Source of the DNA: Candidatus Nitrosotenuis sp.
GTDB taxonomy: Archaea > Thermoproteota > Nitrososphaeria > Nitrososphaerales > Nitrosopumilaceae
Direction: 5' to 3'
NCBI GenBank assembly: GCA_004322465.1
Contig: SCVO01000033.1
Location: 1 to 40,624 of the forward strand
Length of the DNA: 40,624 nt
In this document: positions 5,534 to 26,854 of the stretch, piece by piece
How the letters are laid out: every line of letters starts with the position of its first letter
Position numbering within the stretch: position 1 is the stretch's first letter
Translations under genes and position numbers: made by a program
Notes under the pieces: generated by a model
What the model was told of the DNA's origin: nothing
Database searches by the model: none
The model's input: the letters and a program-made list of their open reading frames with translations, nothing else

Positions 5534-5535
5534 AC

Positions 5536-7776: not shown

Positions 7777-8511
7777 TCAAAATAACGGAAGCGTAAAACT
7801 GAACGTTGCTCCATTGCAGTCAATGTTGTTCTGAGCCCAGATGTGTCCACCATGGGCTTCGATGATGCTTTTAGCGATAAACAGCCCCAATCCCAGGCCA
7901 TCATGAGACGTTGAAACAAATTTTGAGAACAGTGCGGATTCTATTGCAGGGTTGATGCCAAGTCCACTGTCCTTTATTGATATTACGATAACGTTTTTCT
8001 TGATTTGTTTTTCGGCAGTTATCGATATGATGCCGTTTGCAGTAAATTTGATTGCGTTCCCCAACAAATTACAGACGACTTGGGTCAGCCTTTCTTTGTC
8101 GGCAGTAATGAAAGTCGGTTTTGAGGGCCTCATTATGACGATATTGTGATAGTTCCCGTCGATGCCCTTGGTCATGTCATATGATACTGACGATATGAGT
8201 TCGGTCAGGTCAAAACTTTCTTTGTTTAATCGAATTGATTGGTTTTCGATGCGCGAAAGATCCAAAAGATTATGAGAAAGCCTCTGGAGTCTTTTTGCAT
8301 TTCTAAGTATAGGTTCCACATATGCGCTGCTTTTTTCAGGGTCTTTCTGCAAAAGTTCAGAAAAAGTTAGAATCGTATGAAGTGGGGCTTTCATTTCATG
8401 GCTGGCAATATTTATGAACTCTACTTGTTTTCGATGTTGCAATATTTCTAAAAAATCCTCGTCGTCAGATCTTGTTTTACTGATATTGATTTCTTTGCTT
8501 GCAGTTATCAA
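7777..8511 (-). CDS. Minimal cytoplasmic sensor histidine kinase
   Basis: A 244-residue kinase. HisKA has His38 in NIASHEMKAPLHT, and the HATPase domain has NLLGNAIKFT, DSGLGI, FSKFVSTS and GLGLGLFI. There is almost no sensor region before the histidine, so an interacting protein may supply the signal. The start is TTG 8511, placed 27 bases after a CTTATATTTTG box, giving a leaderless mRNA. Its promoter shares a long element with gvpA. The response regulator at 7356 follows, and the GvpD/KaiC-like gene lies upstream in the same direction. Confidence 0.88.
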   Translation of the reverse strand: MITASKEINISKTRSDDEDFLEILQHRKQVEFINIASHEMKAPLHTILTFSELLQKDPEKSSAYVEPILRNAKRLQRLSHNLLDLSRIENQSIRLNKESFDLTELISSVSYDMTKGIDGNYHNIVIMRPSKPTFITADKERLTQVVCNLLGNAIKFTANGIISITAEKQIKKNVIVISIKDSGLGINPAIESALFSKFVSTSHDGLGLGLFIAKSIIEAHGGHIWAQNNIDCNGATFSFTLPLF

Positions 8512-8532
8512 CCAATTTATGAAAGATGATTA

Positions 8533-8563
8533 CAAAATATAAGATCGTATGATAGAATGTTCT
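8533..8563 (-). promoter_or_regulatory. Histidine kinase promoter with gvpA-like upstream element
   Basis: On the minus strand, AGAACATTCT (8563-8554) is followed by GATCTTATAT (8546-8537). The 27 bases 8563-8537 differ from the gvpA promoter segment 6330-6304 at only three positions. The TATA-like box sits 27 bases before the TTG start at 8511. Confidence 0.7.
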
Positions 8564-8630
8564 GGTATGATCTTACAGGATCAACAGCATGGCAAGTTAT
8601 CAAACAGTGTATTTTCAGCAAACATGATCA

Positions 8631-10061
8631 TCAGACAACAGGATCAAACAGGATGCGCGGGTATCCGTGGCTTCGGTCTACCATCAAAGCGCACAGATGC
8701 GACCACGGTATTTCTGACTGCATGAACAAGGTCCCGTTTATCTCAAGGAATCGCATGCTGACGTCCGAGTTTCTGGAAATGTAATGAGATATGTCGCTTT
8801 TGTGGCCATGACTTACAACGATGGTCAGGTCGCTGATAGATTTGAGAAGATTCAGCAAATCGATGCCTTTTCCCTCGTCGTTTGCGTCACCGTATTGTCC
8901 CAGAGATTCTGTAGATATGACGCTGAGAAGCATCTTGCCAGGATTTTTCTTTTTTATTGTTTTTGTCGCGTCATATAACGAAAGATGAGTCTTTTCGGCA
9001 CGTTTGCCAGGCGCGGTTTTTCTTTGCAGATCTACCAAAAAGAACAATTTGTCCAATTGTTTTTTGGTTATCTGCAGACATGCCTTGAGATAGTTCGAAA
9101 CGTACTCAGGGTTGGTTTGATCAGAGCGTTGATACAAGACAGAGTTTCCATACGATAGAAAACTGGAGATGAATTGACTCAGAAAAGCCAGTATTGTCTT
9201 CTCGTTCACATTAGAATCCAGGACGACGTTCACAATGCCGTTAAGCGGGAATCCGCCGCCAATTACGCGATCAAGGTCGGCATTTCCGCTTTTGATGAAA
9301 GATCCTTTCAGCAGATTACTTGTTGAGGACATTTGCATCGGCTTAGAATCGGGCGATATTGCAAATTCTGACGGGTTGTATGGCTCGTAGCTATGAAAGA
9401 TGCTGTGATCCAAAGTATACACGTATGACGGCCTGTTTATTCGCACGCCGCGAAGTTTTGATATGAATATTTCACGCAGCAGCCTGTCATTGTGATGCCT
9501 TTGGCGAAGATCTATAATGCCATCAGCTATAAAGTCGAATGTCGGCGCGGACAGATCCTCGCTTATCAGGATCATCTTTGCCTTTGCTCTTTCACGCCAC
9601 GTTTGCAACACTCTGGCATTGTTCATCAGGGCTTCTTTATCCATAAAGTAGCCTATGGTGTCCCAGCTGTCAACAATTATCATTGGGGATTTGTTATCCA
9701 TCAGTTGATTTGTGAGTCTTTCAAACAATGAAACAGGTTCGTCTAATCTTGCATCGATAAAAGACAGCGAATCGGCGTCGACGTCATTTTCAATCAGATC
9801 TGGCAGCTGTGATTTTTTTCTAGCTCCAAAGAACTGTTCTAGCCAAGGATAGTACAGATACAGCTGACTTGGGGATATTCTCGTAGAGATGTACTGAAAG
9901 CCCTCCCTGATGTTCAAGGCCCTCAACAGGGTCAAGGCGAGCGTAGTTTTGCCAGTTCCGGCATTACCCTTGATCAACAATGAATAGGTATCACGTTTGA
10001 CAAATTCCATTAGCTCTGAAGGAATATGGAATGAGTCGGAGGTTGGGAGTTTGTCAGACAT
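8631..10061 (-). CDS. GvpD/KaiC-like P-loop ATPase
   Basis: A 476-residue protein with a KaiC/RecA-type fold. Walker A is KGNAGTGKTT (31-40) and Walker B is MIIVDSWD (about 146-153). A second KaiC-like half begins with SGNADLDRVIGGGFPLNG, but its P-loop position (VLDSNVNEKT) is degenerate. GvpD, the P-loop repressor of haloarchaeal gas vesicle genes, belongs to this group and opens with a similar 'IPxELxxF...YSLLxKGxAGTGKTT' segment. With a gas vesicle operon next door, a GvpD-like regulator is the best reading; a general KaiC-like signalling ATPase is the alternative. It lies upstream of the kinase-regulator pair in the same direction. Confidence 0.7.
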   Translation of the reverse strand: MSDKLPTSDSFHIPSELMEFVKRDTYSLLIKGNAGTGKTTLALTLLRALNIREGFQYISTRISPSQLYLYYPWLEQFFGARKKSQLPDLIENDVDADSLSFIDARLDEPVSLFERLTNQLMDNKSPMIIVDSWDTIGYFMDKEALMNNARVLQTWRERAKAKMILISEDLSAPTFDFIADGIIDLRQRHHNDRLLREIFISKLRGVRINRPSYVYTLDHSIFHSYEPYNPSEFAISPDSKPMQMSSTSNLLKGSFIKSGNADLDRVIGGGFPLNGIVNVVLDSNVNEKTILAFLSQFISSFLSYGNSVLYQRSDQTNPEYVSNYLKACLQITKKQLDKLFFLVDLQRKTAPGKRAEKTHLSLYDATKTIKKKNPGKMLLSVISTESLGQYGDANDEGKGIDLLNLLKSISDLTIVVSHGHKSDISHYISRNSDVSMRFLEINGTLFMQSEIPWSHLCALMVDRSHGYPRILFDPVV

Positions 10062-12511: not shown

Positions 12512-13510
12512 ATGTTGCAAAAAATAAACTCAGAAATAATAATTCAAACAAAATGCGGCGTGTGCAGTGGATCTTTAATTTTTGATGCAGACACTGGTGA
12601 AAAACTCTGTAACAGGTGTGGGATCGTCATGCCGCCCATGTCAGAAGTATCAGGCAAGTCAAATTCATTATTGAGAAACATCGAACACCACAGTGCGCCG
12701 GAGATGCACACAAACCACATGATGTACGATGTGTCTTTGCCGTCGTTTATTGGCGAGAAGAACATCGATGCAAACGGCAAACGGATTGACAGATTTTATA
12801 CTGATAAGATGAGAAGGTTAGACAGACGTACGCTTTCCAATGATCCAAAGATACGCAACTTGAACAAAGCGATAAGGGAGATTCGCAGAATAACTGAGAT
12901 ATTGGGAATGAAAACGCTGATTGCAGAGCGAGCTGCATACATATACAAAAAAGCCTTTGGACAGGGGCTCATCAGAGGCAGATCAATTAGCGGAATTGCG
13001 GCAGCCTCGATATACGTTGCATGCAAAGAGCTTGACATACCACGTTCGGTAGACGAGATTGAAAATCTCATAGGAGGCATCAACAAGAAAAATGTTTTGC
13101 GATACTACAAGCTATTGTTAAAGCAGATGAACCTCAGTGTCGGTCTTCCTAGTCCCATAGCACATCTGTCGCGCATCTCGAAACGAGCAGGACTGAGCGG
13201 CAGGACTGAGAGAAGGGCACTAGACATGCTGTCCAAAGTAGGCACAGATTCAACACTGGTTGGCAAAAAGCCCATTTCAATTGCGGCGGCGGTGCTTTAT
13301 TTGGCGGCGTTGCAGACTAGAGAACATACGACGCAGTTGAGGATAGCTATCGCGTCAGATCTGACTACCATCACAATTCGCAAAAGATGCGTAGAGATAA
13401 CACGTATTTTAGAAAGACTCAGGCCCCAGGCTCATGTCGAGTTAGATGAAACGAGTTTGTCGAGCGAACAGGCACCGATTACAGTTGAACAAATAATTGA
13501 ACTACTCTAG
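12512..13510 (+). CDS. tfb: Transcription initiation factor B (TFB-1)
   Basis: A 332-residue TFIIB homologue. The N-terminal zinc ribbon is intact (CGVCSGSLIFDADTGEKLC then NRCG, about 16-42), followed by a B-reader/linker and two cyclin-like repeats (RRITEILGM..., SISGIAAASIYVACKELDIP and SIAAAVLYLAALQ). TFB recruits RNA polymerase to TBP-bound promoters. Three TFBs lie in this window, so they are likely specialised. A TTTTAAAA box 27 bases before the ATG suggests a leaderless mRNA. The end overlaps the phosphatase gene. Confidence 0.95.
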   Translation: MLQKINSEIIIQTKCGVCSGSLIFDADTGEKLCNRCGIVMPPMSEVSGKSNSLLRNIEHHSAPEMHTNHMMYDVSLPSFIGEKNIDANGKRIDRFYTDKMRRLDRRTLSNDPKIRNLNKAIREIRRITEILGMKTLIAERAAYIYKKAFGQGLIRGRSISGIAAASIYVACKELDIPRSVDEIENLIGGINKKNVLRYYKLLLKQMNLSVGLPSPIAHLSRISKRAGLSGRTERRALDMLSKVGTDSTLVGKKPISIAAAVLYLAALQTREHTTQLRIAIASDLTTITIRKRCVEITRILERLRPQAHVELDETSLSSEQAPITVEQIIELL

Positions 13511-14429: not shown

Positions 14430-16061
14430 TTAACGCATGTAAAATGCAGTTAACGTTGTTGCCTGTGTAGGCGTTATTGTTTTACAGCTGTTTGTGCTAC
14501 CGTCGCCCCAGTGATCAAATACGTAGTTTTGGTAGTTTGACATGCACACCTTGTATTGCGTATTTGCCTTACCTGTGTACGACAAAGTGGTGTAACCCGA
14601 CTTTACTAGTTTGGTTCCAGAGTAGATCTCTGTCCAAAGGCCAGTAATGGCGTTGCCAGATAGGTCTTTGGATTTCACTTTGATTGCAACAGATGTTTTG
14701 TAGTACGCAGTCAAAGTCGTTGCCTGTGTTGGTGTTATTGTCCTGCAACTGTTTGTGCTACCGTCGTCCCAGTGATCAAAGACATTGGTTTGATAGTTCG
14801 ATACACATACTTGGTATTGAGTGCCAGTTGTGGCATCATACGTCATTGTCGTGTAACCGCTGCTAACCAAGGTACTGCCTGCAGATATTTCTGTCCAAAG
14901 GCCAGTAAGTGTGTTGCCAGCTAGGTCTGTTGATTGTACCGTAACCGTTTGTGTTGGTGACGGTGGTGGAGGCGGTGGTGGAATTGCGCCTGTTTGATAG
15001 GACGCAGTCAAAGTCGTTGCCTGTGTCGGTGTTATTGTCCTGCAACTGTTTGTGCTACCGTCGTCCCAGTGATCAAAGACATTGTTTCCATAATCTGCTA
15101 CACATACTTGGTATTGAGTACCAGATATTGCATCATATGTAAATGTCGTGTAACCGCTGCCAACTAAGATACCGACTGCAGAGATTTCTGTCCAAAGTCC
15201 AGTAAGTGTGTTGCCAGCTAGGTCTGTTGATTGTACCGTAACCGTTTGTGTCGGTGACGGTGGTGGGGGCGGCGGTGGAATTATTCCAGTGTCTAATGCT
15301 GCTGCCAGATCAGAGAAATATGGCGTTACAGAATCCCATGGGTTTGAGAGATTATCGTTCGTTATGTACATGTACGATACATAATTTGCTGAGCTTTGTA
15401 CAAAAGATGTATCCAACGTTCCAACACCATAGGATAGGTATGAAAAGTTGCTTTTGTCGTAGCCAGTATGCCAGCCTCCGAGGAAGCTCAGGCTTGGTAA
15501 TCCCCCAGTCTCATAGATGATGATGTTATCCATAGTTCCAATATAGCTGGACTGAGTTTCAGCTCCTGGATTTCCAACAGTAAATGCAAACCCGACTGAT
15601 TTTGAATGGTTGCTAAGATTTCCGTAGTAGGTTTCGTCTCCTCCGCCGTTTGACATCTCATCAAAGAATATCCCCTGAAGTTGAGGATACCATGATTTGT
15701 AGGTATCAATGTCGGAGTTCACCGTACTAGTGCTTCTTGAGCCGTAGCCAGTAGCCACATATCCTATTACGACTATTCCTGCGGACTGGAGTTTTTGTAT
15801 TCCGGAAACGTAGTTGGAATCTTTTGCTCCGCCGGGGCCGTTATTTGGATTAATTATAGCCACAATCGGTACTGATGGGTGCGCATTTTTTGCAGCAACC
15901 ACTGTGTCCCATGTTGTACCAGGATAGGTATACAATGGGATCATTATACCAGTGCTTGTTGCTGCAAATGCATGTTGCGATGTTAGAGATGGTAGTAGCG
16001 TTGCTGTAACTAGCAGTGACATGAGAGCCAATGCATAGTATTTCGAAGATTGTTCTATCAT
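14430..16061 (-). CDS. Secreted spherulin-4-like glycosidase with three C-terminal repeats
   Basis: A 543-residue protein: signal peptide ending near AFA (about 33), then a spherulin-4 domain (about 36-265: IMIPLYTYPGTTWDTVVAAK, AIINPNNGPG, GIFFDEMSN, NIIIYE). Then come two Pro-rich linkers (PPPPPPPSPTQT) and three repeats of about 85-90 residues containing GLWTEI and VFDHWDDGSTNSC(R/K)TI. The spherulin-4 family includes GH135 enzymes that cut alpha-1,4-galactosaminoglycan, and the adjacent acidic pair in FFDE fits the catalytic site. The repeats look like beta-rich cell-wall or matrix modules. Close relative of the 16275 gene; the Pel-like operon is nearby. Confidence 0.8.
   Translation of the reverse strand: MIEQSSKYYALALMSLLVTATLLPSLTSQHAFAATSTGIMIPLYTYPGTTWDTVVAAKNAHPSVPIVAIINPNNGPGGAKDSNYVSGIQKLQSAGIVVIGYVATGYGSRSTSTVNSDIDTYKSWYPQLQGIFFDEMSNGGGDETYYGNLSNHSKSVGFAFTVGNPGAETQSSYIGTMDNIIIYETGGLPSLSFLGGWHTGYDKSNFSYLSYGVGTLDTSFVQSSANYVSYMYITNDNLSNPWDSVTPYFSDLAAALDTGIIPPPPPPPSPTQTVTVQSTDLAGNTLTGLWTEISAVGILVGSGYTTFTYDAISGTQYQVCVADYGNNVFDHWDDGSTNSCRTITPTQATTLTASYQTGAIPPPPPPPSPTQTVTVQSTDLAGNTLTGLWTEISAGSTLVSSGYTTMTYDATTGTQYQVCVSNYQTNVFDHWDDGSTNSCRTITPTQATTLTAYYKTSVAIKVKSKDLSGNAITGLWTEIYSGTKLVKSGYTTLSYTGKANTQYKVCMSNYQNYVFDHWGDGSTNSCKTITPTQATTLTAFYMR
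14440..15290 (-). repeat. Intragenic tandem repeats encoding 'FDHWDDG' modules
   Basis: Three coding repeats. The first two units are near-identical at DNA level with a period of 297 bases (for example 14704 and 15001 onward: cgcagtcaaagtcgttgcct in both). The third, at the 3' end of the gene, is more diverged and lacks the poly-proline linker. This suggests a recent duplication and a chance of copy-number change. Confidence 0.85.
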
Positions 16062-16081
16062 CTTGTACTAGAACAATCTTC
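16045..16081. promoter_or_regulatory. 13-bp inverted repeat spanning start codon of the 16061 gene
   Basis: Arms GAAGATTGTTCTA (16045-16057) and TAGAACAATCTTC (16069-16081) are perfect complements with an 11-base spacer holding the ATG. The TATA box is at 16085-16093, 28 bases before the ATG, so transcription should begin near the start codon. The repeat thus lies where a repressor would block initiation. The core TAGAACAATCT also occurs at the gvpA promoter. Confidence 0.6.
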
Positions 16082-16085
16082 TAAT

Positions 16086-16227
16086 TATAAAAGGGGTGTG
16101 CAGTTCAGATATGTACACAAACTTCAGTTTCAAAATTTGAAAAATTTGTATTGTAAAAACATGACGCCGAATTTCTACACTATAAAAGAATTGTGTAATG
16201 CGGATATGTAGTCAAACTTCAGTTTCA
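16086..16227. repeat. 47-bp direct repeat carrying a TATA box (two copies)
   Basis: Copies at 16086-16132 and 16181-16227 match in 38 of 47 positions without gaps. Both start with TATAAAAG and share GATATGTA and CAAACTTCAGTTTCA. Read on the minus strand each ends with a CTTTTATA box; the first serves the gene starting at 16061. The second copy has only a 10-codon reading frame after it (ATG 16162). It looks like a promoter duplication. Confidence 0.65.
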
Positions 16228-16274
16228 GACAAATCCAGAAAATGCAAAAGAGAATTCAGCAAGTATTGTCAATA

Positions 16275-17564
16275 TCAGTTTCTATAATGCGCGATGACAG
16301 TCATGTTTGGGCCAACAATGTTTATGATTCTGCACCTATTGACGGTTTGATCATCCCAGTGATCAAAAAAATAGTTTTGATAGTCAGATACACATACCAG
16401 ATACTGCGAATCAGATGACAGTTGATATGGCTGCGGCGTGAATCCAGATGTTATTTTTGTCCCGTTTGAGTAGATTTCCACCCATATTCCAGATATGGAC
16501 GTGCCATTTAGATCGACTGAGCGGAGATTTAGGGTCGAGTACACCTTGTAGTATGCAGTAAAAGTCATGTTTTGCACAGGAGTGATTGTTGCGCACCTAT
16601 TGTCATACATGTTCTCCCAGTGATCAAACACATAGTTTTGGTAATCCGCAGCACAGACAAGATATGGCAAATCAGAAACAAGCCAATGCTGTGTAGGCGT
16701 AAGACCGTTCCTGACTAGGACATTGTTTGAGTAGATCTCATTCCAAAGGCCAGAGATGGGCGCAGATGCAAGATCAGACGATCTGATGGACACCGACGAG
16801 GCATCACCTACTGAGCTAACCAAACCGTCAAAATACGGCGGCAGTGTGTCCCACGGATTTGGCAAAGAGCCATTTGAGATGTAGATGTATCCAACATAAT
16901 TAGCGGCATTTTTCACATAGGCTTGGTCCAGCGCCCCAACTCCATAAGATACCGATGAGAAATTGCTTTTGTCATAGGCTATGTGCCAGCCTCCAAGGTA
17001 GTTTAGACTTGGGATGTTTGAATTATCATAAATTAGTATGTTGTCCACCTTCCCCACATAACTTGGCGGAATATCAGCGCCGGCATTACCAACAGTGAGG
17101 GTAAAGCCAACGGATTTCGCATAGTTGCTCAAGTTCCAATAATAGCCTTCGTTTCCGACAACATTTGACATTTCATCAAAAAATATCCCATTGATTTGAG
17201 GATACCGTGATTTGTAAGAATCAATGTCGTTGATCACCAGACTCGGATCCCTTGCGGTGTAATTTGTGTAGACATATCCCATCACAACGACTCCTGATGA
17301 CTGCAGTTTTTGTATTCCGGAAACGTAGTTTGTGTCAGTGACGTTCCCAGGTCCGTTGTGTGGGTTAATCACCGCCGCAACCGGTACTGAGGGATGCGCA
17401 TTTTTTGCAGCAACCACTGTGTCCCAGGTTGTACCGGGATAGGTATACAGAGGGATTAGAATTCCAGTCACTTTAGTCATTGACTCAGACTGCGAAGATT
17501 CTGCCAGGATGGACAGTAGAAACAACACAATAGAAGTTGCTGCGTAAATCAGCGGTTTTGTCAC
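16275..17564 (-). CDS. Secreted spherulin-4-like protein with two C-terminal repeats
   Basis: A 429-residue paralogue of the 14430 gene. Signal peptide about 1-27, spherulin-4 domain (GILIPLYTYPGTTWDTVVAA, AVINPHNGPG, GIFFDEMSN), then two repeats with GLWNEIYS or GIWVEIYS and VFDHWEN or FFDHWDD. A later acidic residue differs (LIYDNSN versus IIYETGG), which might affect catalysis. The start is GTG 17564, 26 bases after an ATTATAAAAAA box (17585-17595), so leaderless. Expected outside the cell. Confidence 0.78.
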   Translation of the reverse strand: MTKPLIYAATSIVLFLLSILAESSQSESMTKVTGILIPLYTYPGTTWDTVVAAKNAHPSVPVAAVINPHNGPGNVTDTNYVSGIQKLQSSGVVVMGYVYTNYTARDPSLVINDIDSYKSRYPQINGIFFDEMSNVVGNEGYYWNLSNYAKSVGFTLTVGNAGADIPPSYVGKVDNILIYDNSNIPSLNYLGGWHIAYDKSNFSSVSYGVGALDQAYVKNAANYVGYIYISNGSLPNPWDTLPPYFDGLVSSVGDASSVSIRSSDLASAPISGLWNEIYSNNVLVRNGLTPTQHWLVSDLPYLVCAADYQNYVFDHWENMYDNRCATITPVQNMTFTAYYKVYSTLNLRSVDLNGTSISGIWVEIYSNGTKITSGFTPQPYQLSSDSQYLVCVSDYQNYFFDHWDDQTVNRCRIINIVGPNMTVIAHYRN

Positions 17565-17674
17565 ATATTTAATTTTTGAAGCAAATTATAAAAAAACGAT
17601 AGAAGATTATACTGGAACTATGTTACAATTTTTTATTATCAAGGCAGATAAATTAAGAGCGTGATCAGTAAATT

Positions 17675-18739
17675 ATGAAGTATGCAAATGTCCTAGTAAC
17701 AGCAGCCGGAAGCATAATAGCTCAAGGCATAATCAAATCTTTAAGACTTGCAAACATTCAGCGCTCCAGCCCCGTAACATACAGGATATTTACTACGGAC
17801 ATCAACGCTCAGGCTGCCGGTTTGTATCGAGCCGATGTTGGAGTGCTCATTCCAAGACCCACATCTCCGGATTACGTAGACCGAGTCATCAAGATTTGTA
17901 ATGAAAACAAAATCGATGCAGTATTTGTCGGATCTGACGAGGAATTGATGACGCTGGTAACGGCAAAGGAGCAAATAGAGAACGATACAAAATCAGTTCT
18001 CATCGCGAATCCAGAAAAAGTAATAAGAATTGCCTCGGACAAGTGGACCACATACACATACCTAAAGGAAAGGAAGATTTTTTGTGCAGAATCCGCCCTG
18101 CCGGAAGACCGTGAGGCATTCATACGCAAGTTTGGGTTTCCACTAGTTGTCAAGCCACGTGAGGGGCACGGCTCACTCCACTTCTATGTGGTAAACAACA
18201 ATGACGAAATGAAATACGCCATATCCAGCATTCAAAAAGCAGGATGGCGCCCGATGCTACAAGAATATCTGGATGGCGAAGACAACGAATTCACCTCAGG
18301 AGTTACAGTTGACAGGGAAGGAAAGCATGTCATGTCATCCATATCCATGAGAAAAACTTTGAAAGGCGGACAAACATACAAGGCATTCATCGACGATTAT
18401 GATTCAATTAACAAGTGTGCTGAGGACGTTGCAATTAAGATAGGGGCGCGCGGGTCCATAAACATACAATCTAAGCTAATGGATGACAAGCCCAAGATTT
18501 TTGAAATCAATCCCAGATTTTCTGCAACGTGCCCACTTCGTGCAACAGCAGGAGTAAATGAGCCAGACATCATTTTTCGTAACGTGTTACTAAACGAGAA
18601 AATAAGGATTAGAGATTACAGAAAGCTAGTTTGTATGAGATATTGGAACGAAGTTTATGTTCCAATATCCACGTATGATAAAACAAAAAACGACAAGGTA
18701 GTCCAGAACTCAGATGCGTTTATTCCAAATTATTTTTAG
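17675..18739 (+). CDS. ATP-grasp ligase (carbamoyl-phosphate-synthase-like)
   Basis: A 354-residue protein. The N-terminal Rossmann-like region starts NVLVTAAGSIIAQGIIKSL. The ATP-grasp part shows FPLVVKPREGHGS (about 158-170), MLQEYLDGEDNEFTS and the metal-binding FEINPRFS, where Glu and Asn bind Mg-ATP. Such stand-alone ATP-grasp enzymes join an acid to an amine, and many sit in polysaccharide clusters. The gene converges with the PelG-like gene (ends overlap by four bases). The substrate cannot be told from sequence. Confidence 0.8.
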   Translation: MKYANVLVTAAGSIIAQGIIKSLRLANIQRSSPVTYRIFTTDINAQAAGLYRADVGVLIPRPTSPDYVDRVIKICNENKIDAVFVGSDEELMTLVTAKEQIENDTKSVLIANPEKVIRIASDKWTTYTYLKERKIFCAESALPEDREAFIRKFGFPLVVKPREGHGSLHFYVVNNNDEMKYAISSIQKAGWRPMLQEYLDGEDNEFTSGVTVDREGKHVMSSISMRKTLKGGQTYKAFIDDYDSINKCAEDVAIKIGARGSINIQSKLMDDKPKIFEINPRFSATCPLRATAGVNEPDIIFRNVLLNEKIRIRDYRKLVCMRYWNEVYVPISTYDKTKNDKVVQNSDAFIPNYF

Positions 18740-20394
18740 ACGTATTTAGCAAAATATGTACTTGAAGCATTACGTATGATTTTTCTTACACATACTGTAG
18801 ATACAGTAAACGAGAATACTGCCGAAGCGAGATATGCGATAGTTATGTTCTCATATCCAGACTTGCCTAAAATTGCGCCGCCTACAGCTATGATAGATAC
18901 GGCTACAATCGACATATAGACAAGAGGTTTTATTTTATTTAGGAAAGCTATGAACATCAGATTTGCGGCATGCATTGAGATGAAAACATTTCCAATTGAG
19001 GCCAAGCGCAGAACCATTACGGTTTTTTCTGTTCCTCCAAGATGCACTGCTATTTGAGGTGCGAAAACAAAGAGTACTGTAGCAGTTGTCGCAGACAACA
19101 CTAGGGACAAGATAACTAGTTGCGCGTATTGTTTTTGCAGAAAACGATCAATTTTGTCAGATTCTGAGATCTTGAGATCAATTATCATGTTGTTTAGGCG
19201 TATGTAAATTGGCGACATTAGGACGTATTGCAGCATAGACGCCGATAAAATAACAAGCAGCGCCAGATCTGCACCCGTATGATACATCGAATTAAACTCA
19301 AACAATCGGTCGCTAGTACCGGATACGATATCTGGATGATAAATCCAAGAAAGCAGTCTGTCGGTAAAAAGCGTTGAAAAGTACAAAGTGCCAAAGACCG
19401 AGTGAGGCAACATTTCCCATATTTGGACATGAAATCTCGACCTGAGTGTCTTGTCACTTGTCGAAACCGGATTGTAAAAATGAGGCACGTTTCCCGCTAT
19501 TATAGACACGGATTTTTTTTCCAGTATCTTACGGTGATGAAAAACTGCGAAAACGGTCAGAACTGAAAAGGCCACTCCCAAGGATGCAAAATATCGCACG
19601 GTGTTATCAGGTATGGCACCCTCAGCCAAAAAATAAACCGTCCCAATAGACACAAAAGCCGAGGCATAGCCCACAATCAAGTGTTTTATTTTTTTCAAAG
19701 AGTAAATTATCATGTAGCTTGCACGATGCAAGGATACTGTAACCATGCTGATAATGGCAACGCCCACCAGTTGGTACGGCAAATCTGCAAGTTTGGCTGC
19801 AACCAATAGCCCCAAGGATGCCACCAGTAGCAGTACCGATACAGTGAGGTAGCTCCGCTTCAGTATTCGCTTTACCTCACCTATGTTGGTTTGATTATAG
19901 TAAAAAGTAAACAGCTTTTGGAAAATCTGCATCGAGCCCTCTGTAATTAATAATCCCAGGAACACTCCGCCAACGAACGCAGTAGTGAGTTCCTTTGGAA
20001 GGGACAGGGCCATCCACAACGAAACACCAGTTAGAAACAACAGCACCAGCGAACCAAGCCATGGGAAGATCATTCCTAGTCCTTCGGCCAGCCTTTGTGT
20101 CGGAGTTGGAATCGGAGTCGCAAGCAATTCCATGGATTTCTTATCTTGTTCTGCATTGTAGTACAAATCTATAAAATCATAAACATATTTGGCCAGATCA
20201 GGAAGACTTTGAAAACCGTTTTTTGTCACAAGTTCATTGTTGTAACCTAGCACTTCAAGCAAGACAACAATATCTGCAAGGTTGTTAACGCCTTGTTGAA
20301 TTGTCACAATAGATCGCGCCGTCTTTTGTGCAAATATCCGTGATTCCCTTGACAAACTTTTGTAATTGTCAGAGTGAGACAGTAGCATAGCCAT
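18736..20394 (-). CDS. pelG: PelG-like polytopic polysaccharide transporter
   Basis: A 552-residue membrane protein. Residues 1-105 are soluble, then about 12 hydrophobic segments follow from 108 to the end. HSVFGTLYFSTLFTDRLLSW (331-350) and YHTGADLALL (371-380) fit the pattern of PelG, the Wzx-like protein that moves the Pel polymer together with PelF. The usual PelG is about 100 residues shorter, so the N-terminal extension is unusual. It starts six bases after the epimerase stop with GAGGT upstream. Assignment is by remembered motifs and gene partners; a general flippase is the alternative. Confidence 0.65.
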   Translation of the reverse strand: MAMLLSHSDNYKSLSRESRIFAQKTARSIVTIQQGVNNLADIVVLLEVLGYNNELVTKNGFQSLPDLAKYVYDFIDLYYNAEQDKKSMELLATPIPTPTQRLAEGLGMIFPWLGSLVLLFLTGVSLWMALSLPKELTTAFVGGVFLGLLITEGSMQIFQKLFTFYYNQTNIGEVKRILKRSYLTVSVLLLVASLGLLVAAKLADLPYQLVGVAIISMVTVSLHRASYMIIYSLKKIKHLIVGYASAFVSIGTVYFLAEGAIPDNTVRYFASLGVAFSVLTVFAVFHHRKILEKKSVSIIAGNVPHFYNPVSTSDKTLRSRFHVQIWEMLPHSVFGTLYFSTLFTDRLLSWIYHPDIVSGTSDRLFEFNSMYHTGADLALLVILSASMLQYVLMSPIYIRLNNMIIDLKISESDKIDRFLQKQYAQLVILSLVLSATTATVLFVFAPQIAVHLGGTEKTVMVLRLASIGNVFISMHAANLMFIAFLNKIKPLVYMSIVAVSIIAVGGAILGKSGYENITIAYLASAVFSFTVSTVCVRKIIRNASSTYFAKYV

Positions 20395-20400
20395 CTAACC

Positions 20401-21375
20401 TCAAAATGCATTTGCCGCACTCAATGGTGCAGATTTTGTCTTGGTCTTAAGAAAGTCCACAGTTTGACTCAGTCCATATTCAGGTGAAACCTTTGCACCA
20501 TATCCCAAGTAATTTTGTATTTTGTCAATCGACGCACGGCCAAACTTGACATCGCCTTTCCTACTAGGCCCAAATTGATATCCAAGATCAGCAGTGTTGG
20601 TAACTTTCTGCAATGTTTCAAGTAATTCCTTGATGCTCACTGAGCTGCCCGATGCTACATTGAACATGGTTCCGGTTGCATTCGCCGATTCCATTGCCAG
20701 CATGTTTGCCTGTACAATGTCTTTTACAAATACGAAATCGCGTACCTGCGATCCATCACCATGTATGGTTGGAGTTTGGCCAAGCAGAAGATTTCTTATG
20801 AAAACGGTTATGACGCCGCTGTAATCATTTATTGTCTGCCTTGGACCGTAGACGTTAAAGTATCGTAATGCTACACTTTGCAGCCCATAGGTCTCATAGT
20901 ACGCATTAAGATAGTTTTCCACGCATAGTTTTGATGCCCCATACGGCGAGTACGGTCTGCACACAAACTCCTCTCTTGCCTTGTCCTCAACTACCCCGTA
21001 TACCGCAGCGGATGACGCAAAAACGAATCTTTTCACATTTTTACGTACGCAGTAATTCATTAGATCAAGTGTCATGTTTACATTGACATCGTGAACCAGC
21101 ATTGGATCGGTAACCGATTTAGGTACACTTGCAATGGCAGCCTCATGAAAAACGACATCCATTTGCTCATCTCCTAGCAAATTGGCAGTGTCCCTTACAT
21201 CACCAATCAAAACGTGAAGTTTTTTGCCTTTATGCTGAGAAAGGTTTTCCAGAGAACCAGTACTCAGATTGTCGATTACAAAGGTTTCAATTCCTCTGCT
21301 AATCAGTTCGTCCACGATATGGCTTCCAATGAATCCGGCACCTCCAGTAACTAATGCCTTTGAAACTTTGTTCAT
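20401..21375 (-). CDS. NAD-dependent UDP-sugar 4-epimerase (SDR family)
   Basis: A 324-residue extended short-chain dehydrogenase. NAD-binding GGAGFIGSHI (12-21), FASSAAVYG, the catalytic YGASK and LRYFNVYGPRQ are all standard for GalE/WbpP-type epimerases. It could make UDP-Gal or UDP-GalNAc from the glucose forms. It sits between the pelF-like and pelG-like genes, overlapping the former by ATGA. In Pel clusters a UDP-GlcNAc 4-epimerase supplies UDP-GalNAc, which makes that substrate likely here. Confidence 0.88.
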   Translation of the reverse strand: MNKVSKALVTGGAGFIGSHIVDELISRGIETFVIDNLSTGSLENLSQHKGKKLHVLIGDVRDTANLLGDEQMDVVFHEAAIASVPKSVTDPMLVHDVNVNMTLDLMNYCVRKNVKRFVFASSAAVYGVVEDKAREEFVCRPYSPYGASKLCVENYLNAYYETYGLQSVALRYFNVYGPRQTINDYSGVITVFIRNLLLGQTPTIHGDGSQVRDFVFVKDIVQANMLAMESANATGTMFNVASGSSVSIKELLETLQKVTNTADLGYQFGPSRKGDVKFGRASIDKIQNYLGYGAKVSPEYGLSQTVDFLKTKTKSAPLSAANAF

Positions 21376-22856
21376 TGCATCACACCAACTTTTGAATAAT
21401 CAGGTTTGTCGGCAGTGTTGAACGATTCGTATTGATCTAGGAATTTGTTTATTGACTTTGCGAGTGTGAATTCTTCTGAGACTCTTTTTACTGCGGCAGC
21501 GCCAAGATCGGTTCTCATCTTTTCGTCGTTTAGAAGCATGACAATTGCCTTTGCAAGCTCATGCGGCCGTCTACTTCGTACAAGAACCCCGCATTTCTGC
21601 AATGCTTCCCTCACCCCTCCAACATCAGAAGCTATGATTGCCTTACCGCAAGCCATTGCCTCTATCACAGCAAATGGAAAGCCTTCGGTGATGCTGCTCA
21701 TTACGACAACGTCTGCAGAATTGTATGCTTTTTCAGGCTCCTTGGTGCCGCCCATAAATTTGACAGCGTCTTCAAGATGAAGGCTCGTTACAGTGTCAAG
21801 GCATCTGCAGGAATAATCAAGATCGGTGGATCCACCATAAATTAGGCATTGAATATTCGGAATGCTTTCCTTGGCGTAATTAATGGCCTGAATCAGGCAC
21901 ACTATGTCTTTGAAGACGTCCACGCGTGCAACACAAACGACGGTAGGCCTTTCGGAAGACTTTGGGACTGGCAACGGCCTGAATCGGTGTGTGTCGACCC
22001 CGTTGTATATTACCTTAATTTTGGTCGGGTCTGCACCAAGAATTCGTTCCCAGACTGCATTGGCCTGACACACAGGCGTTATCAGATCCGCAATGGAGTA
22101 GATTGTTTTGACGACGTTTCTTGAGAAAACTTTCCAGAATATTTTGGACGGCTCGTCATGCATGTAGCCATTATAGTAAAGCAGCAATTCCCTAAATGCC
22201 ACGCCGTGCTCAGTGATTATCACTGGACAGTTGTTTTCCATTTTGGCAAAAATTGCAATAAAAGACGGAATCCATGCAAGTGAGCAGTGTATGACGTCAA
22301 CTTGAGGTACGCTTATTGACAGAATTTGCAGGTTTCTTTGAACGAGCTGAAATGCCGTAAGCGCTTCTTTTAGGGTCATTTGTCTATACAGCGAGTCGTC
22401 TAGGATTTTTTTTAGAAATATTTGCCAGGTTAGCGGATGCTCAAAGCACTTTTTTGAATCGTGCTTGGTCAGAAACTTGTGCAATGAAAAAATTATTTTA
22501 GACAGATGTGCGGGTTTGCAGTCATCTGACAGAATGGTGTCTATGAATTCCTTAAACAAAGGCATGAATTCACGGTTAATTACGTTGTCAGTTGTGCAGA
22601 AAATCTTTTTCAGCATGGATTGTTTGTCATCATAGAATTCCTCATATCGGTTGGATCCAAATATCGGCATTTCAATCACCCGGATAACGTTTGGCGGTAT
22701 GTTATACGTGCCATTACAGTTTGGATTTGAGAGTTGGTTGACTACTATGAACTGCCAATCCTGCATGTTATCAATCAGGGTTTTTGTCCAGGTGTAGACT
22801 CCTCCAGATGCACAGTTAGGATAGCAGTCCCAGTTAACCAGTAAAACTTTTTTCAT
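21372..22856 (-). CDS. pelF: PelF-like glycosyltransferase (GT4)
   Basis: A 494-residue GT-B enzyme. The N-terminus has the glycogen-synthase-like ASGGVYTWTK (16-25) and a long insert, then VIITEHGVAFRE (212-223), a PelF feature. The GT4 C-terminal domain follows: YNGVDTHRFRP, VARVDVFKD and EGFPFAVIEAMACGKAIIAS (391-410) with the E-x7-E pair. PelF is a soluble cytoplasmic polymerase using UDP-GalNAc/GlcNAc. It overlaps the TPR gene (TGATG) and the epimerase gene (ATGA). It is a confident GT4; the Pel assignment comes from the N-terminal motifs and the pelG-like partner. Confidence 0.75.
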   Translation of the reverse strand: MKKVLLVNWDCYPNCASGGVYTWTKTLIDNMQDWQFIVVNQLSNPNCNGTYNIPPNVIRVIEMPIFGSNRYEEFYDDKQSMLKKIFCTTDNVINREFMPLFKEFIDTILSDDCKPAHLSKIIFSLHKFLTKHDSKKCFEHPLTWQIFLKKILDDSLYRQMTLKEALTAFQLVQRNLQILSISVPQVDVIHCSLAWIPSFIAIFAKMENNCPVIITEHGVAFRELLLYYNGYMHDEPSKIFWKVFSRNVVKTIYSIADLITPVCQANAVWERILGADPTKIKVIYNGVDTHRFRPLPVPKSSERPTVVCVARVDVFKDIVCLIQAINYAKESIPNIQCLIYGGSTDLDYSCRCLDTVTSLHLEDAVKFMGGTKEPEKAYNSADVVVMSSITEGFPFAVIEAMACGKAIIASDVGGVREALQKCGVLVRSRRPHELAKAIVMLLNDEKMRTDLGAAAVKRVSEEFTLAKSINKFLDQYESFNTADKPDYSKVGVMQ

Positions 22857-23464
22857 CAGATTTCTTTCCCTTTTTGTTCGATTGAGCCATAGGCAACGTT
22901 TGGCGCCATTTTTCCACTTCCTGATGAACTCAGGCGCGTAAGTTGATCTATTGCGGCAGAGATTTCGTTGGAGTTTTTGAGGGCGGGATTGATGTGCGCC
23001 TTTATGTTTTCTATCGATTTCTTTTTTGCTCGCAGAACGTCCATTGTTTCATTCTCCCCAAATGGATTCAGTTTTCTTGCCAACGACAGATATTTGTCAA
23101 AAATCTGCTGCGCGCGATAATAATCAGACGCCAGAAGGAAGTTTTCATATGCCTCCTGCAGGGACCAAAGCGACTCCCTTACGGACTCTCCTATAACCAG
23201 ATCAGCGTTTTTCTCATAGGCGTTGGCCGCCTCCAAGTATAGCCTGCGCGCATCCTCTAGGTAGCCAGTCTTGCTAAGGCACTCTGCCGCACACAGGCAG
23301 CTTAGTGCAGATCTAATGTACAAATTAGATTTTAGACATTCTGCCGCATCTTCGATGTAAAAAATAGTAGCTTTGTGGAAATCTTGCCCGTCTTCCATTT
23401 TTATGGCGTTAAGCCACAGATTAGATTCGTCCGTAATTCTATCAGTCCAAGTTTTAACTTTCAA
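22856..23464 (-). CDS. TPR-like helical protein, first gene of the Pel-like operon
   Basis: A 202-residue protein with repeated helix pairs (ALSCLCAAECLSKTGYLEDA, RRLYLEAANAYEK, ENFLLASDYYRAQQIFDKYL), typical of tetratricopeptide-like scaffolds, and a disordered Ser/Gly tail. There is no signal peptide. It resembles the N-terminal part of the TPR-receiver protein at 31621. In bacterial Pel systems PelE supplies TPRs at the membrane; this soluble protein may play an analogous docking role, but it shows no PelE membrane segments. Its stop overlaps the pelF-like start. Confidence 0.7.
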   Translation of the reverse strand: MKVKTWTDRITDESNLWLNAIKMEDGQDFHKATIFYIEDAAECLKSNLYIRSALSCLCAAECLSKTGYLEDARRLYLEAANAYEKNADLVIGESVRESLWSLQEAYENFLLASDYYRAQQIFDKYLSLARKLNPFGENETMDVLRAKKKSIENIKAHINPALKNSNEISAAIDQLTRLSSSGSGKMAPNVAYGSIEQKGKEI

Positions 23465-23908
23465 CGCACTACTGTTCTTTGGATAATTTTTAAAACAAGA
23501 CGAATTTTGTTCCTATAAATTATTGTAGATTATTGTTCAACGAATTAAAGTCAATGAAATAACATGTTATTAAACAGGTCGTCAGATTGCAATCTCGACA
23601 CATGTCAGCGGAATAAAAAATTAGTACGTTTGAGGGCTAGTCCGCAGTACGGATTTTTAGTTTTAATGGATGTACAAATTTCACATAGATGCATCCATTG
23701 CCTATCTCAAACGGAGGCGATATTCTTCGGTATGATTTTACGTACTGCTTACACAGCACATCGGAATCATCTTCATGCATCATGAAATCCCTTCTACAGC
23801 AATGCAAATATGGCGTACGCATCTTTCGTACTTAGGATTAGGTGCGAACAATATTATCTAAAAATCATACGTTCAGGTTATTACATTTACAGACAAATTA
23901 GATTTTGA
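23465..23908. other. Divergent intergenic region
   Basis: About 440 bases between the TPR gene and the WbqC-like gene. A/T-rich promoter material is visible near 23480-23550 (minus) and 23850-23890 (plus). The only candidate gene is the small minus-strand frame listed separately. Confidence 0.5.
23637..23822 (-). CDS. Possible small protein (up to 61 aa)
   Basis: The frame from ATG 23822 has 61 codons. An internal start at MMHEDDSDVLCKQY is preceded by AGAAGGGA, a fair ribosome binding site. The composition (PPFEIGNGCIYVKFVHPLKL) is protein-like, but no family is recognised and it lies in a long spacer. It may be a real small gene or chance. Confidence 0.35.
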   Translation of the reverse strand: MRTPYLHCCRRDFMMHEDDSDVLCKQYVKSYRRISPPFEIGNGCIYVKFVHPLKLKIRTAD

Positions 23909-24619
23909 TTGAAGATAGCCATCCATCAACCGCAGTACTTCCCATATGCGGGTTTTTTCCACAAGCTTAGTTTGGTAGACACCTTTGTTATAATGGACGA
24001 CGTGCAGTACGACAAGAGGTTCACCAACAGAAACAAAATAATTGCGCCAAACGGTTGGATTTGGATTACAGTTCCCATAAACAAAGATCACAAGTTTCGT
24101 CCAAATTCAGAAGTTGAAATAAACAACGACATGCCGTGGAAAGAATTACACTGGAAAAACATTCATCACGTGTATGCGAATGCAAAATTCTTCCATCTTT
24201 ATGAGGACTATTTTAGGACGATTTATCAAAAAGAATGGAAGATGCTTTTTGATCTTGATCTAGAAACAATAAAACAAACGATCAAGTTTCTTGGATTAAA
24301 GACCAAGATAATTAAAGGGTCAGAGATCAAAGTGGAAGGCGAGTCAACCCAGAGACTGGTCAACATATGCAAATCAGTCGGTGCAGACACATATGTTTCT
24401 GGCGCAGGCGGGAAAAACTACATGGACGTAAAATTATTTGAAAAAAACAACATCAGACTAGAATATCAAAATTACCGATGCAGAACATACAAGCAACATC
24501 TGGCACAGTCATTTGTGCCGGATTTATCCATCATAGACACACTTGCAAACAACGGCCCAGACACTTTGCAATTAATAAAAAATCAGGACGAATTTGCCGT
24601 AACAGCACAAATTATTTGA
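23909..24619 (+). CDS. WbqC-like family protein
   Basis: A 236-residue protein starting at TTG 23909: IAIHQPQYFPYAGFFHKLSL, FVIMDDVQYDKRFTNRNKI, then TVPINKD and later YVSGAGGKNYMD. This is the WbqC family pattern, found in many sugar-antigen clusters and thought to transfer or modify groups on nucleotide sugars. Its neighbours (PelF-like, epimerase, ATP-grasp, PIG-L deacetylase) support a part in surface polysaccharide or glycan synthesis. The exact reaction is unknown. Confidence 0.85.
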   Translation: MKIAIHQPQYFPYAGFFHKLSLVDTFVIMDDVQYDKRFTNRNKIIAPNGWIWITVPINKDHKFRPNSEVEINNDMPWKELHWKNIHHVYANAKFFHLYEDYFRTIYQKEWKMLFDLDLETIKQTIKFLGLKTKIIKGSEIKVEGESTQRLVNICKSVGADTYVSGAGGKNYMDVKLFEKNNIRLEYQNYRCRTYKQHLAQSFVPDLSIIDTLANNGPDTLQLIKNQDEFAVTAQII

Positions 24620-24640
24620 GCATGGAGACAAAATTTGCCA

Positions 24641-24934
24641 TCAGTTGAACAGTTCGGCAAGCTCTTTGTATCGTCCAGTGTATTTTCTTCCTTGTTCAGT
24701 AGTGGTGTACACAGCACGATTTGGAGACAAGGATACTTTTTCTACCAATCTACAACGCAGCAAAAACTGCATGTAACGTTCGACCTGCCGGGAATTCAAA
24801 TTGCACCGATACATTATGTGTGTTTTTAGCGAACCGGTCTTGCACACTTCCAGTATGAAATCGACGATGTCTAGCCAGCCTCTGTTTCCCCAACCAAACA
24901 CATTTTTGTCTACATAATCAATCGGACTGCTCAT
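24641..24934 (-). CDS. Winged-helix transcription regulator
   Basis: A 97-residue protein: RGWLDIVDFILEVCKTGSLK, then HIMYRCNLNSRQVERYMQFL, and a wing RAVYTTTEQGRKY. It is a paralogue of the 12044 protein (both have 'KTxIMY...LS...V..Y..FLL'). Likely a DNA-binding regulator; target unknown. It stands between the WbqC-like and PIG-L genes, converging with the former. Confidence 0.78.
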   Translation of the reverse strand: MSSPIDYVDKNVFGWGNRGWLDIVDFILEVCKTGSLKTHIMYRCNLNSRQVERYMQFLLRCRLVEKVSLSPNRAVYTTTEQGRKYTGRYKELAELFN

Positions 24935-24963
24935 GTTCTCTCATCCCCATCTGAGGAAAAAAA

Positions 24964-25665
24964 TTAGAGTAGTTCCAGTATGCCATTAGGAGTTATAGTG
25001 TTTTTTTGATATTTAACTAGTGACTCGCGAGGCACCTTAAACAACTTGAACTCTTGCCCAAGACAAAGCTTGTGTACCTCAAACGCCTCAACATAGTTTA
25101 TGGAAGTATTAAGACGACTTTGAAGGGCTCGATATTCAGACAGGCCCTTAATGGCGTTAGATTTCAGATACAATTTGCTATGTTGTGACCAAAATATATT
25201 GATCAGTTCGACCTTTTCATCGACAACATCCGAAATATCATAATAGACTTGCGGCGTGAAGTTTTTGGTCAGAGGTATCTCATAGGAAAGTATGTTTGCC
25301 ATGAATCTTCCAGATTCCAGAGTGGCCGAAGCTATTGCCTTGTGATCATGATGAACGTCTCCTGGGGAATGTGTCAGAATCAGATCAGGGTCAGCCCTGT
25401 TGATGAAGTGTTCGATGTGATTGATCAGTTCATTGCTTACGTTGAGTTTTGTGTCCTCAAAGTCATCGATCCACAAATTCTTTGCGCCAATAAACTTGGC
25501 TGATTTCATTAATTCTGCGGTCCTTTGCTTAGGATCTCCAGATGCCGCGCCTCTTGTAAGCGAATACATGAATACGTTGTGCCCTTGTCTTGCCGCTTTG
25601 ATCAGCATTCCACCGCATCCAAGTTCAATATCATCTGGATGAGCTCCAATTGCAAGAATGTTCAT
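24964..25665 (-). CDS. PIG-L family N-acetylsugar deacetylase
   Basis: A 233-residue protein with the zinc-binding AIGAHPDDIELGCGG (5-19) and HSPGDVHHDHKA, the conserved motifs of PIG-L/LmbE deacetylases that remove acetyl from N-acetylglucosamine-type sugars. Length matches the family. No signal peptide, so it works on cytoplasmic precursors. Pel polymers need partial deacetylation, normally by the PelA domain, which is not seen here. This enzyme could supply free amino sugars at the precursor level, but a role in another glycolipid or cofactor is equally possible. Confidence 0.88.
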   Translation of the reverse strand: MNILAIGAHPDDIELGCGGMLIKAARQGHNVFMYSLTRGAASGDPKQRTAELMKSAKFIGAKNLWIDDFEDTKLNVSNELINHIEHFINRADPDLILTHSPGDVHHDHKAIASATLESGRFMANILSYEIPLTKNFTPQVYYDISDVVDEKVELINIFWSQHSKLYLKSNAIKGLSEYRALQSRLNTSINYVEAFEVHKLCLGQEFKLFKVPRESLVKYQKNTITPNGILELL

Positions 25666-25910: not shown

Positions 25911-26048
25911 ATGTCTATCGAATCCAGTGTAATTTGCGACAGTTGCTGGACACCATTAGACGAAATGGATCTGTTTGAGATGGATGAGACCGAATCTTCA
26001 GATTATGTGATTTGCACAGATTGCATGTACGCAGAATCGCAGGGATAG
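25911..26048 (+). CDS. Tiny zinc-ribbon protein (45 aa)
   Basis: It starts MSIESSVICDSCWTPLDEMD and ends with a second pair CTDCM. The two Cys-x2-Cys knuckles 25 residues apart form one zinc ribbon. GGAGTG lies upstream of the ATG. The stop is two bases before the GTG of the following secreted protein gene, so they are likely cotranscribed. The protein is strongly acidic (DEMDLFEMDETESSD), an unusual feature for a DNA binder. Unknown function. Confidence 0.6.
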   Translation: MSIESSVICDSCWTPLDEMDLFEMDETESSDYVICTDCMYAESQG

Positions 26049-26050
26049 TC

Positions 26051-26854
26051 GTGCAAACGTACAAAATAATTTGCAACATTTTATGTTTTAGCATCATAGC
26101 AATACTCTATCCAGCATATGGCGAACAGTCAGATTCGGATAACACGACAATTGCTGTAGAGTCACAGAGATTAGACAAAAAAACAATTGATGGGATGTGG
26201 GTTGAAATCAAATCTGGAGAAAGCACGACGTATACTGGGTTTACACCAGCATCATACAATGCCACCAAAGGAGTCGCATACACAGTTCACGTTTCAGATT
26301 ATGAAAATTATATTTTTGAGCATTGGGGTGATGGAGACAAAAATTATTTCAAGGCAGTCAACCCATCCGATAACGTTACTTTAGTAGCATATTTCTACGA
26401 CAAGTCTGCAAATTTGACTCAAGATACGCATGAAAATCCAGTCAAACAATCAATATTTCCTGATTGGGTAAAAAACGCAGCAAGGCAATGGATCGAGGAC
26501 AAGATGAGTGACAGCGATTTTCTTGCTGCTCTGCAGCAGCTAGTAGATCAGAAAATTTTGAGTGCCCCCATCGTTAATGAGCAGCCAAGAGCAGAGGGAT
26601 TCGGCAATACTCAGTGCAATCGAGGATTCAACCACGTAGAAATGATTGGAAGATACACTAACGGCGACACACCCTATCAAATCATTTCTCTAAGATTATT
26701 GTTGCTTGACGATAAGGGTGAGATTCTTGCCACGGGTTCAGGAATGATATCAAACGTAGGTCCTCATGAAACTAAATACTTTAATGCAATTGCCAGATAT
26801 CATTCAGATTTCACATCATGCGAGATACAAGTAGAGAGCAAGATCGCAAAATAA
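26051..26854 (+). CDS. Secreted protein with one 'FEHWGDG' module and a WIKN domain
   Basis: About 267 residues from GTG 26051; the frame is open to 26012 but would overlap the zinc-ribbon gene. The signal peptide (ICNILCFSIIAILYPAYG) is followed by one repeat module (GMWVEIKSG, YIFEHWGDGDKN) like those of the spherulin-4 proteins. Then comes the thaumarchaeal PDWVKNAARQWIEDKMSDSDF domain and a C-terminal beta domain. It links the spherulin modules with another family of surface proteins. Likely extracellular. Confidence 0.7.
   Translation: MQTYKIICNILCFSIIAILYPAYGEQSDSDNTTIAVESQRLDKKTIDGMWVEIKSGESTTYTGFTPASYNATKGVAYTVHVSDYENYIFEHWGDGDKNYFKAVNPSDNVTLVAYFYDKSANLTQDTHENPVKQSIFPDWVKNAARQWIEDKMSDSDFLAALQQLVDQKILSAPIVNEQPRAEGFGNTQCNRGFNHVEMIGRYTNGDTPYQIISLRLLLLDDKGEILATGSGMISNVGPHETKYFNAIARYHSDFTSCEIQVESKIAK

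Follow-up and report, generated by a model that had tools for sequence, protein, structure and literature searches.

A conserved gene unit with PelF and PelG in ammonia-oxidising archaea, probably encoding a Pel/galactosaminogalactan-type exopolysaccharide system

The locus and its core genes

The window (the whole stretch of 40,624 nucleotides that was analysed, contig SCVO01000033.1 of Candidatus Nitrosotenuis sp.) belongs, as contig C7, to an archaeal draft genome of 1.68 Mb that is 92% complete. It contains a gene unit resembling the bacterial systems for the exopolysaccharide Pel, and a Pel-like system had been proposed for it from the DNA alone (the original prediction). The analysis established by computation to which families PelF, PelG and GH135 belong, how the operon is built, and how far the genes are conserved and occur together, and all the genes named in that prediction were recovered in place by open frames and profile searches. 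The core unit consists of four genes:

22856-23464, minus strand: TPR-type helical protein of 202 amino acids, an open frame and the first gene of the unit
21372-22856, minus strand: PelF, a GT4 glycosyltransferase and proposed polymerase (NF038011, DUF3492)
20401-21375, minus strand: UDP-hexose 4-epimerase, proposed to convert UDP-N-acetylglucosamine (UDP-GlcNAc) to UDP-N-acetylgalactosamine (UDP-GalNAc) (Epimerase, 216 bits)
18736-20394, minus strand: PelG, a membrane transporter whose N-terminus forms a cytosolic domain of some 100 amino acids (Pfam PelG, 29.9 bits)

These genes are placed head to tail in the order TPR-PelF-epimerase-PelG, so that the epimerase gene sits between those of PelF and PelG. 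The TPR and PelF genes overlap by 1 nucleotide (TGATG), the PelF and epimerase genes overlap by 4 nucleotides (ATGA), and a gap of 6 nucleotides separates the epimerase gene from that of PelG, as the original prediction of a single tight unit had described.

PelF and PelG

The glycosyltransferase, predicted to be PelF-like, passes the cut-off of the NCBIfam PelF equivalog NF038011 (132 bits, cut-off 100), while other GT4 models remain far below theirs, and it carries the N-terminal domain of PelF (Pfam DUF3492, 106 bits). All 17 homologues compared keep the glutamates of the EX7E motif (E391/E399) and the basic residues R311/K316 unchanged. A maximum-likelihood tree places the protein inside the PelF family with support of 100/97 against other GT4s. 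In the same tree the PelFs of Nitrososphaeria form a single clade (100/100), which spans relatives of Nitrosotalea, Nitrososphaera and Gagatemarchaeum and shares no more than about 30% identity with bacterial PelF. Within it the Gagatemarchaeum copy branches deeply, the Nitrososphaeraceae copies cluster and the window copy stands with its genus mate, a branching pattern that fits mainly vertical descent plus losses. An exception is the copy of genome G157 (locus L035), whose pairing with a peat archaeon suggests transfer. The gene order differs there (L035:6553-13460), being TPR-epimerase-PelF-PelG, and the TPR gene is present a second time at 12924-13460. Another archaeal PelF, more distantly related (L067), is placed outside the Nitrososphaeria clade on a poorly supported branch. 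In genome G272 (L050:14044-15472) PelF is split over two frames by a frameshift or an assembly error, and the TPR, epimerase and PelG genes are intact.

The transporter had been described as PelG-like, and three lines of evidence agree with this. The window protein just passes the cut-off of Pfam PelG (PF16933; cut-off 29 bits) and matches no other Pfam family; 14 of 18 relatives match the same model and none matches another family at E 0.01. Comparison by hhalign of the archaeal PelG alignment with nine bacterial PelGs gave a probability of 97.9%. The AlphaFold model (mean predicted local distance difference test, pLDDT, 77) has about 12 membrane helices, and its predicted fold resembles the MATE, MurJ and WzxE carriers; a sequence search of the PDB with the PelG profile gave no match. 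The N-terminal cytosolic domain (about 100 residues, LE..GY motif) also occurs in PelG-like proteins from Deinococcus, Actinomycetota and Acidobacteria. Weak PelG matches in genomes G036 and G297 were set aside, as no PelF adjoins them. An ordinary GT4 accompanied by a Wzx protein is not favoured, given that the PelF cut-off is passed and the transporter matches PelG alone.

Epimerase, substrate supply and the TPR protein

The solved structures nearest to the epimerase include 6dnt, 4zrm and 6wjb/6wj9. The last pair is PelX of Pseudomonas protegens, a UDP-GlcNAc C4-epimerase. PelX takes part in Pel production (PMC9135694). The catalytic Tyr and Lys are kept in all 29 archaeal copies and the third position of the short-chain dehydrogenase/reductase (SDR) set is Ser or Thr; the gatekeeper residue is Gly in all 29 and Ser in PelX. 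With the SDR Tyr/Lys and a small gatekeeper the protein has the sequence features of a UDP-GlcNAc 4-epimerase of the PelX/WbpP type, and is proposed to convert UDP-GlcNAc to UDP-GalNAc. In ten related loci a gene for GlmS (SIS and glutaminase domains), the entry enzyme to UDP-GlcNAc, lies divergent from the TPR gene. Taken together, the PelX-like epimerase, its Gly gatekeeper and the GlmS neighbours point to a hexosamine chain, for which GalNAc is the simplest reading.

The TPR protein gives a weak SNAP/TPR profile match, has a predicted helical repeat fold (pLDDT 81) and is without a membrane helix. Foldseek returned generic TPR/SNAP-like matches alone for its model, none at E <0.001. The family is present in 18/18 Pel-positive genomes and in none of 32 chosen Pel-negative genomes.

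Spherulin4/GH135 proteins and other glycan enzymes

Two secreted spherulin-4/GH135 proteins had been predicted beside the unit. Both are real, and the window holds a third member of the family outside the span of that prediction (Spherulin4 profile cut-off, 30 bits):

14430-16061, minus strand: SPH1, secreted Spherulin4/GH135 protein with the full triad and three C-terminal repeats (159.5 bits)
16275-17564, minus strand: SPH2, secreted paralogue of the Spherulin4/GH135 family, with D for E as the third acidic residue (131.7 bits)
6463-7359, plus strand: a further member of the Spherulin4 family, with the triad D,N,E (79.5 bits)

SPH1 and SPH2 each have an N-terminal hydrophobic segment. SPH1 aligns to the structures of Aspergillus clavatus Sph3 (5d6t, 5c5g), with D134/E135/E184 falling at D166/E167/E222, the catalytic residues of Sph3. 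In Sph3 residues 166 and 222 are as far apart as chain positions 134 and 190. Glu222 and an aspartate printed as 196 have been reported as catalytic in Sph3 (PMC12054363). In SPH2 the triad is altered to D,E,D at the E222 position, as in its counterpart in the sister genome (L049), and the third protein has N at the E167 position. Among the Spherulin4 domains of the loci examined 20 of 31 keep the D,E,E triad. Syntenic homologues of the third gene are found near the pel unit in L034, L037, L039 and L041. A repeat of about 85 amino acids (LWTEI...YQVCVSDYQNYVFDHW), without a convincing Pfam match, occurs three times in 14430-16061, twice in 16275-17564 and once in 26012-26854; it is perhaps a surface or sugar-binding domain.

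The genome also encodes a secreted GH114 endo-alpha-1,4-polygalactosaminidase (282 bits; L165:6776-7786, G000 contig C15), which is without a counterpart in the 17 other pel-positive genomes. Contamination, which this absence brought to mind, was not upheld: the contig has archaeal-type genes and the protein carries a repeat motif of archaeal surface proteins that is found in other proteins of this genome. The GH114 gene is therefore probably genuine. A fully acetylated product was considered, and is not claimed here because GH114 acts on deacetylated chains. GH135 favours the fully acetylated chain (PMC12054363). Two CE4 domains were found, both in one protein unlinked to the pel unit.

Distribution of the unit

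In a sample of 300 genomes of the class, with PelF called by the NCBIfam cut-off, 17 genomes passed; with G272 added, having a split PelF and the rest intact, there are 18 positives. All four core genes occur together in each of them, which bears out the co-occurrence expected from the prediction and, with the junctions described above, confirms the TPR-PelF-epimerase-PelG unit as a real and conserved archaeal gene unit. Additional named records of Nitrosotalea, Nitrososphaera and Gagatemarchaeum contain it as well. Three positives (G040, G079 and G109) are single contigs of 1.8, 2.0 and 2.8 Mb, and binning contamination is thereby not the explanation. The presence of the unit follows lineage, and the large genus g6 gave no PelF match above the cut-off.

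The association with GH135 proved stronger than had been claimed. Within the class Spherulin4 is found in 18/18 Pel-positive genomes and in 2/282 of the others (Fisher p = 5e-27, relatedness ignored). As the presence and absence of both the unit and Spherulin4 vary inside genera g1 and g8, shared ancestry alone does not explain it. GH135 is also physically linked to the unit, at about 6 kb or less, in many genomes; in Gagatemarchaeum (L057) the unit is full and a GH135 gene lies about 1.3 kb downstream of PelG.

Operons of PelF and PelG were also observed in three other families of the phylum (L160:2405-7817, L161:2501-5785 and L162:6714-10161), so that the system reaches beyond the class. A TPR gene precedes PelF in L161 and L162.

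Neighbouring genes and regulation

Three further genes had been named beside the unit:

17675-18739, plus strand: ATP-grasp enzyme of the PRK12767 type (NF009402, 327 bits, cut-off 218)
23909-24619, plus strand: WbqC-family protein (Pfam WbqC, 243.5 bits)
24964-25665, minus strand: PIG-L deacetylase, cytosolic, BshB1-like (PIG-L, 90 bits)

The ATP-grasp gene is convergent on that of PelG with an overlap of 4 nucleotides, and it adjoins PelG in most relatives. The WbqC gene, which like that of PIG-L is upstream of the core genes, is close to the unit in some relatives only, so that of these two neighbours, both present in the window, the first is often and the second only sometimes kept nearby. 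The proposal that PIG-L acts as a deacetylase of the PelA type on the polymer was rejected. The protein has neither a hydrophobic N-terminus nor a signal peptide, among NCBI models it scores highest with that of BshB1, an enzyme of bacillithiol synthesis (102.7 bits, under the cut-off of 182.5), and it occurs in 16/18 Pel-positive and also in 13/32 Pel-negative genomes. It probably belongs to another pathway and not to polymer processing. BshC-like proteins lie beside PIG-L in Nitrososphaeraceae (L036:6137-7792 and L042:12053-13732), and this pair possibly represents a bacillithiol-like thiol pathway in archaea.

A response regulator, a histidine kinase and a KaiC/GvpD-like ATPase are encoded at 7356-10061 (minus strand) of the window. 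In most relatives, including those beyond the class (L160-L162), a homologue of the ATPase is encoded no more than a few kb from the pel unit, and this region possibly provides a regulator standing in for cyclic di-GMP (c-di-GMP). Gas vesicle genes are located at 4332-5596 (minus strand; GvpF/L, 200 bits), including a GvpK fused to a gas vesicle domain; several relatives carry homologues of these genes close to their pel unit.

Comparison with known systems

The pelDEA(DA)FG operon of Gram-positive bacteria, described for Bacillus cereus (PMC7112168, PMC13254593), resembles the archaeal unit in having PelF and PelG, a single membrane and no PelB/PelC. In the archaeal loci no PelB or PelC was recognised either, though no dedicated search was made, and neither is expected in a single-membrane cell. 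The archaeal unit differs in that c-di-GMP control is unlikely and no PelD, PelA(DA) deacetylase or homologue of PelE was found; it has a built-in epimerase, GH135 in place of GH166 and the extra N-terminal domain of PelG. With the galactosaminogalactan cluster of Aspergillus (uge3, gtb3, sph3, ega3, agd3) it shares an epimerase, a GT4-type synthase and the GH135 enzyme Sph3. The Aspergillus cluster has GH114 (the Ega3 family), of which the window genome has a secreted member. The archaeal host, and an Agd3 that was not found in a search whose control gave no match, set the two apart. Aspergillus has one membrane synthase, whereas PelF and PelG are separate in the archaeal unit. PelX of P. protegens belongs to the same epimerase family and has a small gatekeeper residue as well, but the archaeal enzyme is encoded within the synthase unit and has Gly for Ser at that position.

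For comparison with bacteria, the PelFs closest to that of the window in a plasmid collection were used. Alongside PelF their clusters encode a PelG-like protein and mostly an SDR epimerase, joined in varying combination by Spherulin4, GH114 and, in Deinococcus QL22, an Agd3-like deacetylase. Those of Deinococcus, Streptomyces and Kocuria (L133, L134, L143-L145) share with the archaeal unit PelF, a PelG-like protein with the common N-terminal domain and usually the epimerase, and the Streptomyces and Kocuria clusters hold Spherulin4 as the archaeal loci do. Unlike the archaeal unit they add GH114, and Deinococcus QL22 adds an Agd3-like deacetylase; the PelG-like proteins tested gave no match to the Pfam PelG model, and no TPR protein was recognised. 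PelF and GH135 are thus linked in independent bacterial genomes. In L133:12973-15123, L134 and L144, PelF and the PelG-like protein are found with Spherulin4, GH114 and the Agd3-like deacetylase (Deinococcus QL22), and these clusters appear to be the bacterial equivalent of the galactosaminogalactan cluster of fungi.

Archaea are unmentioned in two surveys of Pel (PMC7112168, PMC7112194), and no report of an archaeal Pel, PelF or PelG system was found in the open-access literature, a search which left most subscription journals uncovered. An ancestral reconstruction described gains of acetamidosugar and exopolysaccharide genes in ammonia oxidisers, in which this system was not named (PMC7554672). 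In the literature found, such a system is described for bacteria alone, and a polymer of similar chemistry for moulds.

Proposed function and alternative explanations

We consider it probable, with good though not full confidence, that these genes encode a synthase-dependent exopolysaccharide system of the Pel/galactosaminogalactan type in ammonia-oxidising archaea. PelF, PelG, the unit and the GH135 link of the system originally predicted have stood, and the role given to PIG-L has not. From these results we infer the substrate, linkage, export role, complex formation, biological use and polymer chemistry. The GlmS pathway would supply UDP-GlcNAc, which the epimerase would convert to UDP-GalNAc. 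The TPR protein may hold PelF and PelG together at the membrane, where PelF would polymerise an alpha-1,4-linked, GalNAc-rich chain that PelG would move across the single membrane. The secreted GH135 proteins could cut the emerging chain or remodel it at the surface, as the mould Sph3 does, freeing or trimming it, and the product would be a sticky amino-sugar polymer, resembling Pel of bacterial biofilms, that forms a capsule or a biofilm matrix.

Several observations weigh against this proposal. PelG is highly divergent, the window copy exceeding the Pfam cut-off by just 0.9 bits. In Nitrososphaeraceae Spherulin4 does not adjoin the unit. In a sample of the phylum the association was not observed beyond the class: Spherulin4 is missing from three genomes with (TPR-)PelF-PelG-like operons, and seven genomes that have it gave no PelG match. 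The absence of PelA noted in the prediction holds for the cluster, with no PelA-type deacetylase or GH166 seen in the loci (the PelA model itself was not searched), and no Agd3-type deacetylase (Agd3_CE, PF25115) was found in 50 genomes in a search whose positive control gave no match, yet the genome does have the secreted GH114. There is no PelD-like gene in the pel loci, and no GGDEF-family protein was matched in the genome with positive controls (PelD's own model was not searched), which makes c-di-GMP control as in bacteria unlikely. Profile comparison of the TPR protein with bacterial PelE gave no match, and its identification as a PelE homologue was dropped for that reason; by its position it is probably a scaffold and a functional analogue of PelE.

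The same machinery could make and export a different polymer, be it a heteropolymer of Gal and GalNAc like that of Aspergillus or a chain of some other hexosamine. The low identity to bacterial PelF, which may have allowed the specificity to shift, the galactose of the related fungal polymer (PMC9135694) and the extra nucleotide-sugar genes of the related Deinococcus and Streptomyces clusters speak for it, but the dedicated epimerase, the GlmS neighbours and GH135 all indicate GalNAc, and we regard this as unlikely, if the most serious of the alternatives. It is considerably less probable that the genes serve a lipid-linked or S-layer glycan, in which case PelG would flip a short glycan in the manner of Wzx and PelF would be a GT4 of the usual kind. 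The likeness of the PelG model to MATE, MurJ and WzxE, the heavy glycosylation of archaeal S-layers and the surface glycosylation clusters attributed to Nitrosotalea (PMC4836417) would suit such a role. However, PelG matches neither the Wzx (Polysacc_synt) nor the MurJ family of Pfam, the only GT4 of the unit bears the N-terminal domain of PelF, no initiating transferase or oligosaccharyltransferase was recognised in the unit, and the pairing with GH135 is constant within the class.

The GH135 genes of Gagatemarchaeaceae have been interpreted as serving fungal-wall degradation (PMC10640624), and elsewhere in the phylum some lineages have Spherulin4 but no PelG. That GH135 and GH114 digest galactosamine polymers of fungi or bacteria and are unrelated to PelF and PelG nevertheless seems very improbable, considering the near-exclusive pairing within the class, which holds inside g1 and g8, and the close physical linkage in many genomes. 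The arrangement in Gagatemarchaeum L057 speaks for action on the polymer that the cell itself makes, and it is more likely that the GH135 genes read in that study as degrading fungal walls process this polymer instead. The least credible explanation, to which we give almost no weight, is that part of the locus is a bacillithiol-like pathway with PelF as its GT4. PIG-L does match BshB1 best and a BshC-like protein adjoins it in L036 and L042, but PelF reaches 132 bits with its own model against 85 with BshA (cut-off 274), and the presence of PIG-L is not bound to that of PelF.

Returning to the Pel/galactosaminogalactan-type system, we lean slightly towards the more specific view that it is an ancient archaeal branch inherited in soil ammonia oxidisers, which would operate without c-di-GMP, with the TPR protein replacing PelD/PelE and GH135 trimming the polymer outside the cell. 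If this is true, archaeal GH135 proteins would be enzymes of a self-made polymer and not scavengers of fungal walls. With the unit described here the Pel family reaches from bacteria into archaea. Archaeal biofilm polysaccharides are nearly uncharted at the gene level, and the unit may offer a testable gene set for a polymer of soil nitrifiers.

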